33,657 nucleotides of DNA from Gammaproteobacteria bacterium (lineage in GTDB: Bacteria; Pseudomonadota; Gammaproteobacteria; Tethybacterales; Persebacteraceae). The position numbers and the translations under genes were made by a program. Location: the NCBI GenBank assembly GCA_020027345.1, contig JAHRAH010000104.1, positions 1 to 33,657 on the forward strand, written 5' to 3'. Of this stretch, positions 15,711 to 33,479 are shown one piece after another. The notes below the pieces were generated by a model. It did no database searches, was not told where the DNA came from, and saw only the letters and a list, made by a program, of their open reading frames with translations. Numbering within the stretch: position 1 is the first letter of the stretch; each line of letters starts with the position of its first letter.

Positions 15711-16802
15711 TCAGTCGTCCCACTTTAACTTGCCGCCCGTTTGATATTCTATCACACGCGTCTCAAAAAAGTTCTTTTCCTTTTTCAAATCCGCCGCCTC
15801 GCTCATCCACGGAAACGGATTGCGCGAGCCCGCAAACAATCCCGGCAGCCCGATTTGCTCCAAGCGCCGGTCCGCGACAAAACGCAAAAACTCCTTGAAC
15901 ATCGCGCAGTTCAGCCCCAGAATGCCCCGCGGCATTGTTTCTTCGGCGTAGCGGCATTCCAATTCCACCGCGGTCTTCATCATCTCCAAAACCTCGCCCT
16001 GCAGCGAAGCGTCCCACAAATGCGGGTTTTCCAGTTTTATCTGGTTGATGACATCAATCCCGAAATTCAAATGCAGCGACTCGTCGCGCAGTATGTACTG
16101 CACCTGCTCCGCGCAGCCCGGCATCCGGCTGCGCCGCCCCAGCGCCAAAACCTGAACAAAGCCCACATAGAAAAACAGCCCCTCCATAATCATCGCAAAC
16201 GCTATCAGCGATTTCAGCAGCCGCCGGTCCGCCGCCGGCTCCCCCGTCTCAAACGAGGGATCCGTCAGCGTGTCTATGTATTCCAGACAAAAGGCGTCCT
16301 TGTCGTGAACGCACGGTATCTCCATGTACATATTGAAGATCTCGCCCTCGTCCAGCCCCAGCGCCTCCACGATGTACTGGTAGGCGTGAACATGCACCGC
16401 CTCCTCAAAGGCCTGCCGCAGCAGGTATTGGCGGCATTCCGGATTCGTTATCAGCCGGTAGGTGCCCAGCACAATGTTGTTCGCCGCCAGCGATTCCGCC
16501 GTCGCAAAAAAGCCGAAATTACGCTTGAGCATATGCCGCTCCTCCGCGCTCAGCGCCCCGCCCTGCCATTGTTCTATGTCGCGCTGCATGCTGATTTCGC
16601 TCGGCATCCAGTTGTTCGCGCAAGCCGCCAGGTATTTCTCCCACGCCCATTTGTACTTGATGGGGACCAGTTGATTCACATCCGCGCGGCAGTTGATAAT
16701 GCGCTTGTCGTCCACCTTCACCCGCCGGTAGCCGCCCGCCAAAGGCGGCGACAAAACCGGTTCAACCCCGTTTTTCCGCTTAAGAACCGAAACATCGCTC
16801 AT
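15711..16802 (-). CDS. nrdB: Ribonucleoside-diphosphate reductase beta subunit
   Basis: [14 protein letters not shown] and [14 protein letters not shown] ligand motifs; ATG at 16802 with SD AACAGGAG. Confidence 0.92.
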
Positions 16803-16928: not shown

Positions 16929-17591
16929 TCAAAAAGTTTCGTATTGTTCCGGCATCACGATGGTCTCCTGTGCATCTTCCATCACCCGCGGCAAAGAACA
17001 ACCGGCAAAATGCTGGGCAAAACGCGCCCTGATAAGCAAAGGGAGCCCGGTTGCCGAATCCTTTGTCGCCGCAGCTTTCAAAGCGTCCGACCTGACGCTC
17101 GCCTCCCTGTCATGCGGCGGAGCAGGGACAACCGGCGGAATCATCAATCCTGCCTCCTTTCCGAATTTTTCCCGGACGGCCTGCAAAACCGGCGCGAAAT
17201 CATTGTCGGAGGAAAGCAGCCAGCATCGGTCGTATTTGTCATCCATCGCGTCCAGCACCATCGCCAAAGCGATATTGACATCGGTTTGCTTCTCCTCCAC
17301 CCCGCCGCTTTTCTTGGAAAAATAACCGCTGACCACCCGAACGCCCCTTTTCCGCAAGGCGCGAATGTATGCCTCGTGCCTGCTTTTTCTTCCGCCATCC
17401 CACAATTGATAGTAGGCGGTAAAAAAACAAACCTCGGACAATTCCTGGCCGTCCCTTACAAATTGACGGACAAATTTGCGGTAGTCCAGCCAGCGGTAGT
17501 TTCGGCCGCACCGTTCGTGATAACTCTTGATGCGATGATAGGCGTTGAACCCGTCTATGTAAAAACCGACCCTGATTTTTTGCTTGTCCAT
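16929..17591 (-). CDS. NYN (LabA/PIN-like) domain protein
   Basis: KIRVGFYIDGFNAYHRIKSY ... KQTDVNIALAMVLDAM ... CWLLSSDNDFAPVLQAVRE. Confidence 0.82.
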   Translation of the reverse strand: MDKQKIRVGFYIDGFNAYHRIKSYHERCGRNYRWLDYRKFVRQFVRDGQELSEVCFFTAYYQLWDGGRKSRHEAYIRALRKRGVRVVSGYFSKKSGGVEEKQTDVNIALAMVLDAMDDKYDRCWLLSSDNDFAPVLQAVREKFGKEAGLMIPPVVPAPPHDREASVRSDALKAAATKDSATGLPLLIRARFAQHFAGCSLPRVMEDAQETIVMPEQYETF

Positions 17592-17715
17592 GTTCGGTTC
17601 CTGAAAAAAAAGGCCCCGGGAGACCCGGGGGCACCCTTGCGGGCGTTGTGAAATGTCCGAGGCAGCCCCGGATGCGCCCGTCCCACGGGCGTCACCGGGC
17701 AGTATAGCACATTTT
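17592..17715 (-). promoter_or_regulatory. Promoter (TGTGCTATACT) plus structured leader and terminator-like hairpin (CCCCGGG-TCT-CCCGGGG-CC-T8) before the NYN gene
   Basis: 24-bp and 16-bp blocks identical to 24673-24696 and 24703-24718. Confidence 0.7.
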
Positions 17716-21203: not shown

Positions 21204-22886
21204 ATGCAAATAACGACCATGTCCACCGGCGGCAAGCCGGGGAAAACGGTGCAGTACCTCATAGACCAAGAGGAGAAGGAGAGCCTGCTCTTTAACTCCG
21301 AGTACCAACGCGCGCCGGCGTGGAACAGGAGGCAAAAGCAGCTGTTTGTTGACTCTGTTTTTCGCGGCTACCCCATTCCCGCTTTCTACTTTCACAAACA
21401 AGCGGGCGGCGAGGGGGTAGTGGATGTCATTGACGGTCAGCAACGGATTCGCGCTATTTGCGGATTCGTGGGCGGGGAATTTCGGTGCTTGCATGCGTCG
21501 GAATTCAAAATGCCCTCCCCGCAAGACAGCAACTCGCCCTGGCTCGGCAAAAAATTTGCCGCTTTGCCCGATGATTTAAAGCGGGATTTCTGCGGCAGAC
21601 CGATTGTCATCCACGAAATGGCGGCAGTCAGTGATATCGTGGTCCGGGATTTGTTCATCCGCCTGCAAGGCGGAAAGCCGCTGAGCCCGCAGGAAATTCT
21701 GGACGCATATCCCGGAGAATTTTCCGAGTACATAAAGCAAATTGGCGGTAAACCAACGCTAAACCGTGAGGAGGCATTTTTGTACTCCGGGCACCGCTTC
21801 TTCAATGAATTTGTCCGGGGCAAAGAAAAGAGCGTCCCCAAGCGGAAATTGGCGGCGCAACTGTCAATGCTTCTGTGGGAAAATCGCCCCGGGGGCGAGT
21901 TGGTTTTTTGCGACATCAATTCGCAGACAATTGCCAATTTTTATTGGGCCCGTGTCAATGACGGATTTGACCCGGATAACAGCGAAGGCGCCGTCCGGTT
22001 GGAAAAAGTCATGGATGGAATTTGCGACATCTTTCCTGACAATCCCAAATTGCACGGGCATCAGGCGATTCATTTGTCATTGCTGGTCAATTCCCTTATG
22101 GACGGTTACCCGCAGGGGTGGGGGCAACACTTGCCGGAAGCGTTTCGCAATTTTTGCGAAAAATTTCAAAAGGCGAAAAATTCCGGAAAGGGGGAATACT
22201 TTTCCCGTTACGCCCAGTGGACGAGACAGCAAACCGACAGGGAGCACGCCATCAGGACGCGGCACGAATTTTTCTTGCAGGAAATGTTGCCGCAAATTTC
22301 TGCAAAATTGGAAAATACGCTCCGTGAATTTTCCATTGCGGAGAAGCAATACATATATCTCCGCGACCGCGGAATGTGTCAGTGGTGCCGTTGGACGCGA
22401 ACAAAGGACTCTGGTGCTTGGAATCCCATCGCCTGGGGTGATGATATGAAAATCCATGTTTTTCGCCCGGAAATGGGCGTGGCGGAATTGGATAACGGCG
22501 CATTGGTGCATTCGCGTTGCCACGAAAATCTTCTTCGCCAACATCCTCCCGCCGAATTTCAAATTTGGTTCCGTTCAAAAGCACGGGGAGCTTCTGTCGG
22601 AAAAAGGAAGATTCACATGCTACCGGACAAGACGGAATGCCGCTTCGTGTATCACGAAGAGGAAAGTTCGTATGTCTACGGGCAAATTACTGGCGGAAGA
22701 TTGCATATTCCCGCCGACGAGAGCGATCCGAAAGCCCCGAAATTCGGGAGTTTCGGATCATTCAAGGAGGCATCCGAGGCAATTCTCAACCACAACCCCG
22801 GCTCTCACAATTGGTGGAAAGAGTGGGAAATACGACTTCCGGACAACGACGAATGGATGTCCGCGGATGATTGGCGCCCGGAGTAA
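21204..22886 (+). CDS. DUF262-domain protein with C-terminal HNH-like zinc region
   Basis: SEYQRAPAWNRRQKQLFVDSVFRGYPIPAFYF, VIDGQQRIRAI; C-term CQWC...NGALVHSRCHENLL; SD and TGTGATACAAT promoter. Confidence 0.8.
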   Translation: MQITTMSTGGKPGKTVQYLIDQEEKESLLFNSEYQRAPAWNRRQKQLFVDSVFRGYPIPAFYFHKQAGGEGVVDVIDGQQRIRAICGFVGGEFRCLHASEFKMPSPQDSNSPWLGKKFAALPDDLKRDFCGRPIVIHEMAAVSDIVVRDLFIRLQGGKPLSPQEILDAYPGEFSEYIKQIGGKPTLNREEAFLYSGHRFFNEFVRGKEKSVPKRKLAAQLSMLLWENRPGGELVFCDINSQTIANFYWARVNDGFDPDNSEGAVRLEKVMDGICDIFPDNPKLHGHQAIHLSLLVNSLMDGYPQGWGQHLPEAFRNFCEKFQKAKNSGKGEYFSRYAQWTRQQTDREHAIRTRHEFFLQEMLPQISAKLENTLREFSIAEKQYIYLRDRGMCQWCRWTRTKDSGAWNPIAWGDDMKIHVFRPEMGVAELDNGALVHSRCHENLLRQHPPAEFQIWFRSKARGASVGKRKIHMLPDKTECRFVYHEEESSYVYGQITGGRLHIPADESDPKAPKFGSFGSFKEASEAILNHNPGSHNWWKEWEIRLPDNDEWMSADDWRPE

Positions 22887-24101: not shown

Positions 24102-24527
24102 TCAGCCGTGTGCCGTCTTGTTGTATTTCGGATAATAATCCGAAAAAACACGGAAGATGTGCAAATAAATCTTCTCGGCTTGCCGTGCCTCCCTTGTGTT
24201 CCGATGCCGGGACACCACACGATAGGAAGTAAAGTTTTTTCCCTCCTGCCAGTGCTCTTCCAACCGGGCCGACAATTGCCCAGTGCTACCGACATAAACG
24301 ACCCGCACCCCAAAAAGCAGTTCGTAAACAACGGGGCAATGCCCGCAGTCCGGCGCCGCCGCAAAAACGGCATTCATATCGGGGGCGCATCGGGAGAGCG
24401 CTTCCCAAATCCAATTTGCCGACGCAACAGGCGCAGGGAAATACCTGTTGGAAAGCGCGTTCGGCACTCTATTCATCGGCGAGGCCTCAGTCATCCCGAG
24501 GAAGTCAAACGGTGTTTTCATTTTCAA
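24102..24527 (-). CDS. GIY-YIG-type nuclease-like protein
   Basis: VVYELLFGVRVVYVGSTGQLSARLEEHWQEGKNFTSYRVV...AEKIYL. Confidence 0.6.
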   Translation of the reverse strand: MKMKTPFDFLGMTEASPMNRVPNALSNRYFPAPVASANWIWEALSRCAPDMNAVFAAAPDCGHCPVVYELLFGVRVVYVGSTGQLSARLEEHWQEGKNFTSYRVVSRHRNTREARQAEKIYLHIFRVFSDYYPKYNKTAHG

Positions 24528-24599: not shown

Positions 24600-24718
24600 A
24601 ATGATAATCAAAATCCCCCGGACGAGCCGGGGGCGCTCATTTGAGCATAGTAAAAATGCCCCGAGGCGGGCTCGGGGGCACCCTTGCGGGCGTTGTCGGG
24701 GACAGTATAGCACATTTT
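24600..24718 (-). promoter_or_regulatory. Promoter (TGTGCTATACT) + conserved leader + two terminator-like hairpins
   Basis: CCCCGAG-CCCGC-CTCGGGG-CATTTTT and CCCCCGG-CTCGT-CCGGGGG-ATTTTG; shared blocks with 17626-17715. Confidence 0.65.
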
Positions 24719-25650
24719 TTTCCAAAGTCAAGGGGAAAAACGCCAAAGCGCATTTCGGGCGTTGCGGCGACAGCGCATTGGCGGGGCGTAAAAAAGCTCG
24801 CACTTATCCGCGGACGGGGGGGGCTAAGTGTCATTTTGTGTGGGATTTTTGGCGGCATTTGGAGAGGAGGAAATGGGCGATGAGGGCTTTTTGGCGGGGG
24901 CGGGACAGGCCGCGGCGCGCAGGCGGCGCGCAAGCGCGGATGCGCGTACCGGTGATAGCGGCGGCCGATGCGGTCGGTGCGGGGGACCCGCTCCTCCAAC
25001 ACCGCCGCGTGCCGCCGTTGCCAGCGGGCGAAGCGCGACAGCCAGCGTTGCCGTTGTTGGGTGTTGCGCACCGCCGTCAGTTCTTCGCGCAGTTCGTCCA
25101 GTTCGCGCCCGGCACTGTCGCGGCGGCTCCACAACTTCTTGCGCACCTCTTCGGAAATGTGCCTGAGACAGCGTTGGCGCGGGATATCAGGCCACTGCGC
25201 GGCGATGGCATGCAGCAATGCCGGATGTCCGTCGGTGACGACCAGCCGCGGCGGCGGCAGCGTGGCGACAAACTCGCCCCATGCTTTGCGGCTTTCCGCG
25301 GCGGCGAAAGCGAAGGAGACGACCTCGCTTTTGCGCGACGCGATAAGGACGACTTCGGCTGTTCCGCCGCGCAGCCAGAAGCCGTCCAACAACAAGCATT
25401 CCACCGATGCCGGCGACGGCGCGGCGGGGATGTCGTCCAGAAAAACGCAAAAGCGCCGATACAAAGTGCTGCGCGAAATGCGCAAGTCGGCGGCAATATC
25501 GCGCAGGCGGGCTTTGCGGTCCAGCCAGCGCCAAAACCCTTTGCGCCATTGCCTGTGCCGGGCGGCGGGGTCTTTGCGCGTCGTGCTGACGCAACATTGC
25601 GGACACCGCCAGCGTTGTTTCCCGGCGCTCGTTTTGCCGTGCCGATGCAT
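24637..25650 (-). CDS. Transposase ORF; runs out of the IS left end, first zinc knuckle lies upstream of the in-frame ATG
   Basis: KQRWRCPQCC zinc finger, LLLDGFWLR, VVTDGHPALLHAI, RCLRHI; frame open from the IS into flanking DNA. Confidence 0.8.
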   Translation of the reverse strand: MHRHGKTSAGKQRWRCPQCCVSTTRKDPAARHRQWRKGFWRWLDRKARLRDIAADLRISRSTLYRRFCVFLDDIPAAPSPASVECLLLDGFWLRGGTAEVVLIASRKSEVVSFAFAAAESRKAWGEFVATLPPPRLVVTDGHPALLHAIAAQWPDIPRQRCLRHISEEVRKKLWSRRDSAGRELDELREELTAVRNTQQRQRWLSRFARWQRRHAAVLEERVPRTDRIGRRYHRYAHPRLRAACAPRPVPPPPKSPHRPFPPLQMPPKIPHKMTLSPPRPRISASFFTPRQCAVAATPEMRFGVFPLDFGKKCAILSPTTPARVPPSPPRGIFTMLK

Positions 25651-25799
25651 TGTCCGCTCGCATCGCGGACAGCGTTTTTTTGGTCATTTTCTTGCCCTTT
25701 CTTAAAACGGGTCAAGAATTGTCGCCGAAAACGCCCCTCAACCCCTTACCCCGCTTGAAATTCCGCAAAACAAATCCCACACAAAATGACACTTAGCCC
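24821..25799 (-). mobile_element. IS256/IS1249-like insertion sequence, 979 bp, 28-bp perfect TIRs, 8-bp TSD GACGGGGG
   Basis: TIR GGGCTAAGTGTCATTTTGTGTGGGATTT at 24821-24848 and inverted at 25772-25799; TSD 24813-24820 and 25800-25807. Confidence 0.9.
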
Positions 25800-26120: not shown

Positions 26121-29100
26121 TCACTGGCACGACTCGCATTCGGCGTCTATGCGGCAGATGTTACCGTTGCCGTTACCGTTGCCGGCGTTGCCGTTGCCGT
26201 TGTTGGCGGAGGGGACTTTGTTCAGGGCGCCGGTGCGGGTGGTGGGTTTGTCGGTGCTGGTTGCGCCGAGGGTGCGGAGATAGTAGGTGGTTTTTAATCC
26301 GCGCATCCAGGCCAGTTTGTACATTGCGTCCAGTTTCGGCCCCGAGGGTTCCGCCATGTACAAGTTCAGCGACTGCGCCTGGTCAATCCATTTTTGCCGG
26401 CGCGCGGCGCATTCTATCAGCCATTCCGGGGCGATGTCAAAAGCCGCCGGGTATTTCGCCCGCGTTTCGGCGGGAATGCGTTCAATGCTTTCCATCCGCC
26501 CGTCGTAATATTTGATGTCCTGCAGCATCGCCTCGTCCCAGAGTCCGAGTTGCTGCAGGTCGCGCACCAAATACCGGTTGGCGACGGTGAAGTCCCCGGA
26601 GAGATTGGACTTCACATAAATGTTCTGGTAGGTCGGCTCAATGGACGCGGTAACGCCGACGATGTTCGCTATCGTCGCCGTCGGCGCGATGGCGACGCAG
26701 TTGGAATTGCGCATTCCATGCTTTTGTATGCGCGCGCGCAAGTCGTCCCAGTCGCGGCGGCGCGAAATGTCCGCTTGCAAAAACTCGCTTTCCACGCGCC
26801 CGCCGGCGGCTTCGCCCAAAGGCAGTTCGCCGGAAACGCCTTCGGCATCGCCGCCGCCTTCGCGTTCATTCGCGAGCAAACGCAAAGTGTCGTGCGGAAG
26901 TATTCCGCGGCTCCACAAACTCCCCGCAAAACTTTCGTATTTGCCGCGCTCCTTCGCCAGATCGCAGGATGCGCCGTAGGCAAACCAGCAAACCGTTTCC
27001 ATGGAACGGTCGGCAAACTCCACCGCGTCTTCCGAATTATAGGAAACCCCCAATTCATAAAGGCATTCCTGAAATCCCATAATGCCGAGCCCGACCGGGC
27101 GGTGCCGCATATTCGCGTTGCGCGCTTTTTTGACGGCGTAATAATTAATGTCAATGACATTGTCCAGCATCCGCATCGCCGCGCGCACGGTGTCGGCGAG
27201 CATTTCCTCGTCCAGTTTGCCGTTGCGAAAATGCGCGTGCAAATTCACCGAGCCGAGATTGCAAACGGCGATTTCGTCCTTGCCGGTGTTGAGCGTGATT
27301 TCCGTGCAAAGATTGGAGGAATGCACGACCCCGCAATGCCGCTGCGGCGAGCGCACATTGCAAGCGTCTTTAAATGTAATCCAGGGATGCCCGCTTTCAA
27401 AAAGCATCCCCAGCATTTTGCGCCAGAGCGTTTGCGCGTCCGCGGTTTTGTGCGGGAGTTCGCCCCGGATTGCGCGCGCTTCGCATTCCAGATATTCGCG
27501 TTCAAAGTCGGCGCCGAAGGCGTCGTGCAGCCGCGGCGCGTCGCTGGGCGAAAAAAGCGTCCACGGTTCCTTGCGCATCACGCGTTTCATAAAAAGGTCG
27601 GGCACCCAGTTCGCGGTGTTCATATCGTGCGTGCGCCGGCGTTCGTCGCCGGTGTTTTTCCGCAGGTCCAAAAACTCCGGGACATCGGCGTGCCATGTTT
27701 CCAAATACGCGCAAACCGCGCCCTTGCGTTTGCCGCCCTGATTCACCGCGACGGCGGTGTCGTTCACGATTTTCAAAAACGGAACGACGCCTTGCGACTT
27801 TCCGTTCGTCCCCTTAATGTGCGAGCCCATCGCCCGCACCGGAGTCCAGTCGTTGCCCAGCCCGCCGGCAAACTTCGCCAGCAACGCGTTTTCCTGATAG
27901 GCCAGAAAAATGCCTTCCAAATCGTCGGCGACAGTCGTCAGATAACAACTGGACAACTGCGGATGCCGCGTCCCCGAATTGAAAAGCGTCGGCGTGCTGC
28001 TCATAAAACGAAACGACGAAAGCATTTCGTAAAACTCTTTCGCCCGCGCCGTCGGATTTTTTTCGCGCAGCGCCAGCCCCATCGCGACGCGCATGAAAAA
28101 ACTTTGCGGAAGTTCCAGCCGCCGCTCGCTGATGTGCAAAAAATAACGGTCGTAAAGCGTCTGCAAGCCGAGATACTGAAACTGCAAATCGCGTTCCGGA
28201 CGCAGCGCCTTGCCGAGCGCGCGCAAATCAAAAACCTTCGCCATTTCCGGCGCCAGCAGTTCCGCCGCAACCCCGCGCGCGATCATGTCCGAAAGATGTT
28301 CGGGGTACAGCGCCTCCATCTCGCCCTGCGCCGTCGGACGACCGAAAACTTCCTGCCGCAGCGATTCCAAAAGCAGCCGCGCGCTCACAAAAGAATAATC
28401 CGGCTCCTTCTCAATCAACGCGCGCGCCGAAAGGCAAAGCGCCGCCGCGACTTCGCTCTCGGCGATGCCGTCGTACATCTCTCGCAGCGAAAGGCGCAGG
28501 ACGGTGTCCGGATCGGTGCGCGACAACCCCCCGCAGGCGGCCGCGATCTTTTCCTGCAAATCGTGAACATCCAAATGCCGCGCCTTGCCGTCGGCGCCGA
28601 CGACCGTCATTTCCTGCGGCAGAATCTTGCGCGCCGTCTCCTTGCGCGCGCGCGCCCGCTCGGCGCGGTAGAGCATATACGCGCGACCGATTTCGTGGTG
28701 TTCGCTGCGCATCAGCACGAGCTCCACCTGGTCCTGAATGGACTCAATGTTAAAAGTGGAGGCGGTCGGATTGCGCGCTTGCAGTTTTTCCACAACTTCG
28801 CGCGCGGCGGCGGCGATGAACTCCTGCACCGCCGCCGAGTTCGCCGCGGCCGCCCCCGTCTGCGCGATGAAGGCCTTGCTCATCGCCGCGGTGATTTTGT
28901 CCGGGTCAAAAGGCGCGACGCTGCCGTTGCGCCGGATGACTTTGTACTTCCGCCGCGCCGACTCCCCCCCGACTTCGCCGCTCACGCCAACGCCCCCGCC
29001 CGCGGAAACCGCAGAAACCCCGGAAACCCCAACACCAACAACGGCATCCGCAACCGTCCCGGCAACAGTCCCCGCAACGGCATCCACAACCGTCCCGGCA

Positions 29101-29213
29101 ACGCCCCCGACAGCGTCCCGTCCGCCGCCGTCACCGTTCCCGGCCCCCGCCGTCTCTGCCGCCCCCGCGAAAACCTGCCTTCCGCCGTCGCCGACAATGC
29201 TCCCCTTTTTCAT
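26121..29213 (-). CDS. nrdA: Ribonucleoside-diphosphate reductase alpha subunit with ATP cone and Gly/Val/Ala-rich N-terminal extension
   Basis: KYKVIRRNGSVAPFDPDKI ATP cone; SSTPTLFNSGTRHPQLSSCYL; C-terminal CRIDAECESCQ. Confidence 0.93.
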   Translation of the reverse strand: MKKGSIVGDGGRQVFAGAAETAGAGNGDGGGRDAVGGVAGTVVDAVAGTVAGTVADAVVGVGVSGVSAVSAGGGVGVSGEVGGESARRKYKVIRRNGSVAPFDPDKITAAMSKAFIAQTGAAAANSAAVQEFIAAAAREVVEKLQARNPTASTFNIESIQDQVELVLMRSEHHEIGRAYMLYRAERARARKETARKILPQEMTVVGADGKARHLDVHDLQEKIAAACGGLSRTDPDTVLRLSLREMYDGIAESEVAAALCLSARALIEKEPDYSFVSARLLLESLRQEVFGRPTAQGEMEALYPEHLSDMIARGVAAELLAPEMAKVFDLRALGKALRPERDLQFQYLGLQTLYDRYFLHISERRLELPQSFFMRVAMGLALREKNPTARAKEFYEMLSSFRFMSSTPTLFNSGTRHPQLSSCYLTTVADDLEGIFLAYQENALLAKFAGGLGNDWTPVRAMGSHIKGTNGKSQGVVPFLKIVNDTAVAVNQGGKRKGAVCAYLETWHADVPEFLDLRKNTGDERRRTHDMNTANWVPDLFMKRVMRKEPWTLFSPSDAPRLHDAFGADFEREYLECEARAIRGELPHKTADAQTLWRKMLGMLFESGHPWITFKDACNVRSPQRHCGVVHSSNLCTEITLNTGKDEIAVCNLGSVNLHAHFRNGKLDEEMLADTVRAAMRMLDNVIDINYYAVKKARNANMRHRPVGLGIMGFQECLYELGVSYNSEDAVEFADRSMETVCWFAYGASCDLAKERGKYESFAGSLWSRGILPHDTLRLLANEREGGGDAEGVSGELPLGEAAGGRVESEFLQADISRRRDWDDLRARIQKHGMRNSNCVAIAPTATIANIVGVTASIEPTYQNIYVKSNLSGDFTVANRYLVRDLQQLGLWDEAMLQDIKYYDGRMESIERIPAETRAKYPAAFDIAPEWLIECAARRQKWIDQAQSLNLYMAEPSGPKLDAMYKLAWMRGLKTTYYLRTLGATSTDKPTTRTGALNKVPSANNGNGNAGNGNGNGNICRIDAECESCQ

Positions 29214-29299
29214 CAAAAACCTCTCTTTTCCACAACTTGCAAACAATATATGGACAGCAAAACCCGCTTCCCGCCGATTCCCGTCCACATATAGAGCGA

Positions 29300-29520
29300 A
29301 ACCCCATTGTATACCAAATTTTCCCCCAAAAACGCCAAGCCCAACAAAAATTTTTTCCCAAAAAATCCCCCCAACAGTCCCCCCGAAAACCCCTCCCCCT
29401 GCAACAAAAACCCCCATCCCCCCCCAAAAATCAACAACACCCCCCAAAATCCCCCAAAACCCAAAAATAAAAACCCCCCACAAAAACCCCCAACCCTCCC
29501 ACCCCTAATTAAGTACACCC
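29300..29520 (-). promoter_or_regulatory. nrdA promoter (TGGTATACAAT) preceded by a G-tract array on the sense strand
   Basis: + strand attgtatacca at 29306-29316; repeated C3-C8 runs 29310-29520 on the + strand. Confidence 0.55.
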
Positions 29521-29662: not shown

Positions 29663-29694
29663 AAGCCCCGCAGGGGCGGCCGGTTGTAGCACAG
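29663..29694. repeat. 32-bp repeat copy 1 (aagccccgcaggggcggccggttgtagcacag)
   Basis: Identical to 33448-33479. Confidence 0.95.
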
Positions 29695-33262: not shown

Positions 33263-33446
33263 ACCTTGCCGACATTGCGAACTTTTAGCACTGCGGACTT
33301 TTTGTATTGCGGACTTTTGGCGTTGCGAACTTTTAGCACTATGGACTTTTGACACTGCGAACTTTTGGCATTATGGATTTTTGGCATTGCGGATTTGGCA
33401 TTGCGGATTTGGCATTGTGGATTTTTGGCATTACGGGTTTTTGTTG
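33263..33446. repeat. Degenerate ~16-bp tandem minisatellite, ~11 copies (CTTTTGGCATTGCGGA)
   Basis: Read directly. Confidence 0.9.
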
Positions 33447-33447
33447 G

Positions 33448-33479
33448 AAGCCCCGCAGGGGCGGCCGGTTGTAGCACAG
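33448..33479. repeat. 32-bp repeat copy 2
   Basis: Identical to 29663-29694. Confidence 0.95.

Follow-up and report, generated by a model that had tools for sequence, protein, structure and literature searches.

Stand-alone NYN-domain nucleases of the HEC-09 family share a conserved layout, predicted from their DNA sequences, in which a promoter, a structured RNA and an intrinsic terminator precede the coding region and separate the predicted transcription start from the start codon of the nuclease. The layout stands before most stand-alone relatives of the nuclease, in bacteria and phages, and suggests an unrecognized RNA-controlled defense or toxin system.

Two leaders in one genomic stretch

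The layout occurs twice in the window, which is the whole 33,657-nucleotide stretch of gammaproteobacterial DNA that was analyzed (Table 1). In leader 1, the promoter is followed by two 7-bp hairpins, CATTTCACAA, hairpin A (hpA), a single C, the terminator with its CC and T8, an SD-like AGGAA, and the ATG. Leader 2 consists of promoter, hpA, C, a first terminator hairpin with the tail CATTTTT, and then the small hairpin and second terminator, with the gene beginning ~95 nt further on. Sequence inspection and folding recovered every hairpin named in a preliminary description of this DNA, including the two terminator-like hairpins (24677-24659 and 24633-24615) said to end leader 2. Leader 1 contains a fourth hairpin, of 7 bp, that was absent from that description (TCCGGGG-CTG-CCTCGGA, 17672-17656).

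Table 1. Features of the two leaders and their surroundings (window positions unless a contig is named)
Feature	Position	Strand	Details
nrdB	15711-16790	-	
NYN-domain nuclease gene, HEC-09 family	16929-17591	-	220 aa; Pfam NYN E 6.6e-17; PADLOC HEC-09 E 9.8e-30
Leader 1 terminator hairpin	17614-17630	-	CCCCGGG-TCT-CCCGGGG, then CC + T8 (17604-17611)
Leader 1 hairpin A (hpA)	17632-17645	-	CGCC-CGCAAG-GGTG; within 24-mer
Leader 1 hairpin	17656-17672	-	TCCGGGG-CTG-CCTCGGA; sequence and MFE fold
Leader 1 hairpin	17675-17691	-	CGCCCGT-GGG-ACGGGCG; sequence and MFE fold
Leader 1 extended -10 promoter	17701-17711	-	TGTGCTATACT
GmrSD N-terminal domain protein	21204-22886	+	match to defense protein NsnA, E 1e-25
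GIY-YIG-like gene	24102-24521	-	139 aa; SD AGGAGA; Pfam GIY-YIG E 0.007, sub-threshold
Leader 2 terminator hairpin 2	24615-24633	-	CCCCCGG-CTCGT-CCGGGGG-ATTTTG
Leader 2 second small hairpin	24635-24646	-	GCTC-AAAT-GAGC
Leader 2 terminator hairpin 1	24659-24677	-	CCCCGAG-CCCGC-CTCGGGG
Leader 2 hairpin A	24679-24692	-	same sequence as in leader 1
Leader 2 promoter	24704-24731	-	TTGACT-16-TATACT with TG
IS, IS1249/Mutator type	24821-25799		28-bp perfect terminal repeats; ~100 bp upstream of leader 2 promoter
nrdA	26121-29483	-	
C190 leader	C190:4494-4609		before 222-aa HExxH protein (L096 739-1407, -)

Two blocks reported as common to both leaders proved to be exact and not extendable, namely a 24-mer (17626-17649 and 24673-24696) and a 16-mer (17700-17715 and 24703-24718). 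In 180 Markov-simulated windows, the longest exact direct repeat was 19-20 nt; the real window also has repeats longer than 24 nt, but these belong to other repeat families, and the 24-mer is thus significant, though not the largest repeat present. It spans hpA and runs into the start of the terminator stem, and the two terminator stems differ by one compensatory change, from G-C to A-U. The 16-mer is less remarkable, because most of it makes up a strong extended -10 promoter, to which copy 2 adds TTGACT at 16 nt, and sites resembling TGTGCTAYANT are enriched in the window (11 versus 0.5 expected). A dispersed element, CTGTGCTACAACCGGCCGCCCC, looks like a promoter but is a genome-wide repeat, and was rejected as a candidate.

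Other repeats occur in this genome. Copies of a dispersed repeat, CTGTGCTACAWYCGGCCGCCCCTGYGGGGCTTTT, lie in the window at 29663-29693 and 33448-33478 and also at loci L088, L090, L093 and L095; several are preceded by CACAGGGCG..CGCCCTGTG and resemble a repeated double-hairpin or terminator element. Positions 33275-33446 hold 16-bp tandem repeats similar to TTGCGGACTTTTGGCA. On contigs C114 and C159 (loci L086 and L092), two related long palindromic structures, reading GCCCG..CGGGTTG..CAACACCCG..AACGGCGCGGC, are found 3' of TGTGCTAYAAT.

Genes and genomic context

The Pfam match of the gene behind leader 1 bears out its earlier assignment as an NYN gene. Its AlphaFold model (pLDDT 91) has VPA0982 and the NYN domains of MARF1 as nearest folds, and its conserved acidic residues are D13, E100, D104, D129 and D131. 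The alignment used for structure prediction comprised window, genome and viral loci only. This protein and all 48 of the 48 aligned homologs match the PADLOC HEC-09 protein model. One survey linked the presence of HEC-09 to phage susceptibility (PMC12447246). Some homologs on Pseudomonas plasmids (for example, L195, from a Pseudomonas syringae plasmid) are annotated as nicB, 6-hydroxy-3-succinoylpyridine monooxygenase, an assignment at odds with their being NYN nucleases. The gene behind leader 2 had been called GIY-YIG-type; the Pfam match falls below the cut-off, but the VVYVGSTGQLSARLEEH motif is present.

Both leaders reside within a ~9.3-kb stretch of accessory genes between nrdB and nrdA, with the NYN gene directly upstream of nrdB and leader 1 in front of the NYN gene. 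In a genome of the same order (G003) and one of the same class (G008), nrdA adjoins nrdB. Two genomes of the same family, from two genera, have a DNA methylase-type gene between nrdA and nrdB, assigned by Pfam in one (G001) and by resemblance to the G001 gene in the other (G002). With its GmrSD/NsnA-like protein, the insert in the window looks like a small defense island. A search of relatives showed the NYN gene and its leader to be absent from sister genera.

Further leader copies in the same genome

The genome that contains the window (2.36 Mb) was searched for hpA followed at 13-43 nt by GGGGNNTTT, which gave exactly four matches, versus none for a reversed control. Because the pattern was derived from these four sites, the informative part of the result is the absence of further matches; since the assembly, in 194 contigs, is 86.5% complete, additional copies may be missing. 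The four sites are the two window leaders and one leader each on contigs C40 and C190. All of them have a promoter before and an ORF after them, rather than being scattered at random relative to genes.

The C40 leader precedes a second HEC-09 NYN gene (E 3e-19), and the protein encoded behind the C190 leader matched no Pfam family. These two leaders share 84% identity over 104 nt, and a compensatory change distinguishes their first hairpins (GCGCC/GGCGT versus GCGTC/GACGC). The genome therefore has two leader families, in each of which one leader precedes a HEC-09 gene and the other a gene unrelated to it (NYN and GIY-YIG; NYN and HExxH), and the earlier observation of one leader before unrelated genes holds in the window for the NYN and GIY-YIG-like genes. 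The accompanying suggestion of a mobile cassette was not borne out, as nothing mobile was found except the IS beside copy 2.

The 24-mer was not found in viral contigs, and its single match in GTDB genomes, which has no T-run, was judged to be due to chance. The same judgment applies to a near-match at C119:302, inside a coding region. Searches for leader 1 in relatives yielded nothing convincing, and homologs of the GIY-YIG-like gene of the window do not carry the leader.

Conservation of the layout among HEC-09 homologs

A strong terminator with a stem that ends no more than 75 nt from the start codon was detected at 32 of 49 HEC-09 homologs (dereplicated at 70% identity) versus 1 of 72 control ORFs, a small set drawn from the same loci (Fisher p = 9e-16). 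No terminator was found at the start codon of any of 28 NYN genes outside HEC-09 (p = 1.5e-9 versus 32/49). The preliminary description had pointed out a terminator in the interval from promoter to start codon; this is supported for both window leaders, and the 32 homologs have a terminator close to the start codon. About one third of the homologs lack a scored terminator; some of these are embedded in other operons, and in five (L068, L130, L143, L180 and L183) a terminator is visible by eye. A further hairpin ends 0-5 nt 5' of the terminator in all 32 leaders, with a mean folding z of -1.26. Promoter-like sites were identified in 17 of the 49 homologs (5.2 expected), with the -10 mostly 65-130 nt before the start and thus upstream of the hairpins; homolog start codons were chosen by rule, as the nearest plausible start with an SD, which adds noise to these distances.

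The carriers of HEC-09 genes include IMG/VR contigs; small plasmids of E. coli, Salmonella and Klebsiella; and plasmids of Xanthomonas, Pseudomonas, Aeromonas and Methylobacterium. Of the 5426 genomes in the E. coli set, 12 have the small-plasmid version, exclusively on plasmids. What looked like another leader copy on E. coli plasmids was discarded, being only the palindromic terminator matched to itself. Leaders from Xanthomonas and Eleftheria, both followed by an NYN gene, align at 82.5%.

Two subfamilies of homologous leaders could be aligned, and both hairpins show compensatory base changes in each, the kind of stem change by which the preliminary description proposed to judge the RNA. 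In subfamily A1 (19 sequences), 95.1% of pair cells are standard pairs (25-67% in slid controls), and changes on both sides of a pair number 31, versus 12.4 in shuffles. The corresponding values for A2 (18 sequences) are 94.0% (37-62%) and 45 versus 13.1. The slid control somewhat favors these structures, because they were predicted on the same alignments, and the shuffles ignore relatedness. The window leaders belong to neither aligned set, and have the architecture in common with them but not the sequence.

A motif of the form ACGCC..GGCGTCGGGCC..GGCGGGG, found before some HEC-09 genes in Thermus and others (L059, L062, L067, L190, L196-L200, L311 and L374), was considered as a second RNA class and rejected. 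Sulfuricystis has this motif too, but with no NYN gene immediately downstream; the motif is therefore probably a feature of the operon around it. It may be a piece of the host's helicase/methylase operon or mark a site of insertion.

Possible function of the leaders

Our preferred reading, to which we assign a probability of roughly 0.55, is that these loci are cassettes of promoter, noncoding RNA, terminator and nuclease gene, in which the nuclease is made by read-through only and is probably restrained by the RNA. Each leader would be a small RNA gene with a sigma-70 promoter, joined to the front of the nuclease gene. Its structured RNA of ~50-100 nt would contain hpA directly followed by the terminator hairpin and T-run, and for most NYN homologs the start codon lies within ~10-45 nt beyond. 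RNA polymerase would, by default, make the short RNA and stop, so that this RNA accumulates, and nuclease mRNA would arise only from read-through. By analogy with AbiF/RCd22 and ToxIN, we infer that excess short RNA binds and restrains the nuclease, as an RNA antitoxin or autoregulator. When phage or stress halts new RNA synthesis, the nuclease would be freed. The cassette appears to have been copied before a second gene twice in this genome, once before the GIY-YIG gene of the window and once, from the second HEC-09 gene, before that of the HExxH protein, and such copying would place these genes under control of the same RNA or nuclease. Several observations speak against this reading: the sequence of hpA differs between leader subfamilies, unlike that of a uniform antitoxin; the tandem repeats that are typical of type III antitoxins are mostly absent; about one third of the homologs have no scored terminator; homologs of the GIY-YIG-like gene do not carry the leader; and the survey cited above tied HEC-09 to phage susceptibility.

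A short RNA had been one of two interpretations offered initially, and as a prediction it is supported. The other, classical attenuation, is not: no conserved antiterminator was found in the 32 leaders, where upstream pairing of the 5' arm of the terminator was 0.47 versus 0.54 in shuffles, and one possible alternative fold was seen, in window leader 1 only. The missing antiterminator pairing also weighs against the main rival that remains, a plain expression throttle. Here the terminator and hairpin would simply hold a dangerous nuclease at a low level, read-through would be raised by phage antitermination or stress, and the RNA would have no role in trans. Such a throttle needs nothing beyond the terminator enrichment of HEC-09 genes, and it would suit both the position of the terminator directly at the start codon and the presence of a nuclease of another family (GIY-YIG) behind the same leader in the window. 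However, it leaves unexplained why the terminator always has a second hairpin immediately before it, why the A1 leader sequence is kept between beta- and gammaproteobacteria, and why exactly hpA was copied before other genes. We regard it as rather unlikely, though a serious competitor.

We give considerably less credence to the idea that a convenient promoter-leader was recently duplicated, or that the window copies underwent gene conversion, leaving two genes without a regulatory link. The identity is limited to the promoter and the 24-mer, with differing flanks, and the IS near copy 2 could be taken in its favor; yet the event would have occurred twice, each time joining a HEC-09 NYN gene with another gene, and hpA stayed identical even as a compensatory change altered the terminator stem. 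Although G+C hairpins and repeats abound in the genome, chance, an ordinary end-of-operon terminator or a dispersed repeat is very improbable. The counts already contradict these explanations, given four copies only, each placed alike with respect to promoter and ORF, with none in the control, and strong terminator enrichment across the family.

A broader version of the RNA-nuclease cassette, which we put forward tentatively and at somewhat less than even odds, is that HEC-09 NYN proteins form a widespread, unrecognized RNA-controlled toxin or defense family, and that in some genomes the RNA has been copied before a second effector, such that one RNA-nuclease pair governs two. HEC-09 is currently cataloged as a single candidate defense protein only. 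Should RNA plus nuclease prove to be its true unit, experiments on the isolated protein would overlook what controls it, and their outcomes could be weak or toxic. This layout is also found on 3.5-kb Escherichia coli plasmids, among them the 3555-bp NZ_CP097217.1, which makes direct testing possible, and the duplicated leaders would allow a test of how an RNA cassette spreads to further effector genes.

Comparison with known systems

Neither the window leaders nor those of 31 related loci scored above the gathering threshold of any Rfam family. The PADLOC-DB entry lists HEC-09 as a candidate defense protein, and its HMM library describes the protein alone. Within the limited open-access literature covered (most preprints and subscription papers being outside its scope), we found no description of an RNA associated with HEC-09 or such NYN nucleases. 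The leaders resemble transcription attenuators in having a terminator between promoter and gene, but differ in that no conserved antiterminator was found and no leader peptide is apparent by eye.

In type III toxin-antitoxin loci (ToxIN, CptIN, TenpIN), a terminator separates the RNA from the toxin (PMC5086642). The window and 32 of the 49 homologs likewise have an RNA element and an intrinsic terminator ahead of a protein of ribonuclease type. However, the HEC-09 protein has an NYN/PIN fold (nearest VPA0982 and MARF1) and is not of the ToxN/AbiQ, CptN or TenpN family. There is also no clear tandem-repeat array, since the leaders are mostly a single hairpin-terminator unit, and no pseudoknot was identified in them; among selected leaders viewed by eye, the unit is doubled in window leader 2, L113 and L176. 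The HEC-09 locus is thus not type III by toxin fold or repeat array, but may work like one.

The nearest precedent is AbiF (Abi_2) with RCd22 of Clostridioides difficile, in which promoter, noncoding RNA, terminator and read-through are combined with direct neutralization of the protein by the RNA (PMC12373285). HEC-09 loci share the order of promoter, short structured noncoding RNA, Rho-independent terminator and protein gene, as well as phage-encoded and mobile distribution, and read-through would give the protein mRNA in them too. They differ in that AbiF belongs to the Abi_2 family and the HEC-09 protein is an NYN protein, and in that RCd22 has two copies of a defined abiF motif, whereas the RNA of HEC-09 loci consists of a single hairpin and a terminator, with divergent sequence. 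Binding of RNA to protein is established for AbiF; for HEC-09 we propose it by analogy.
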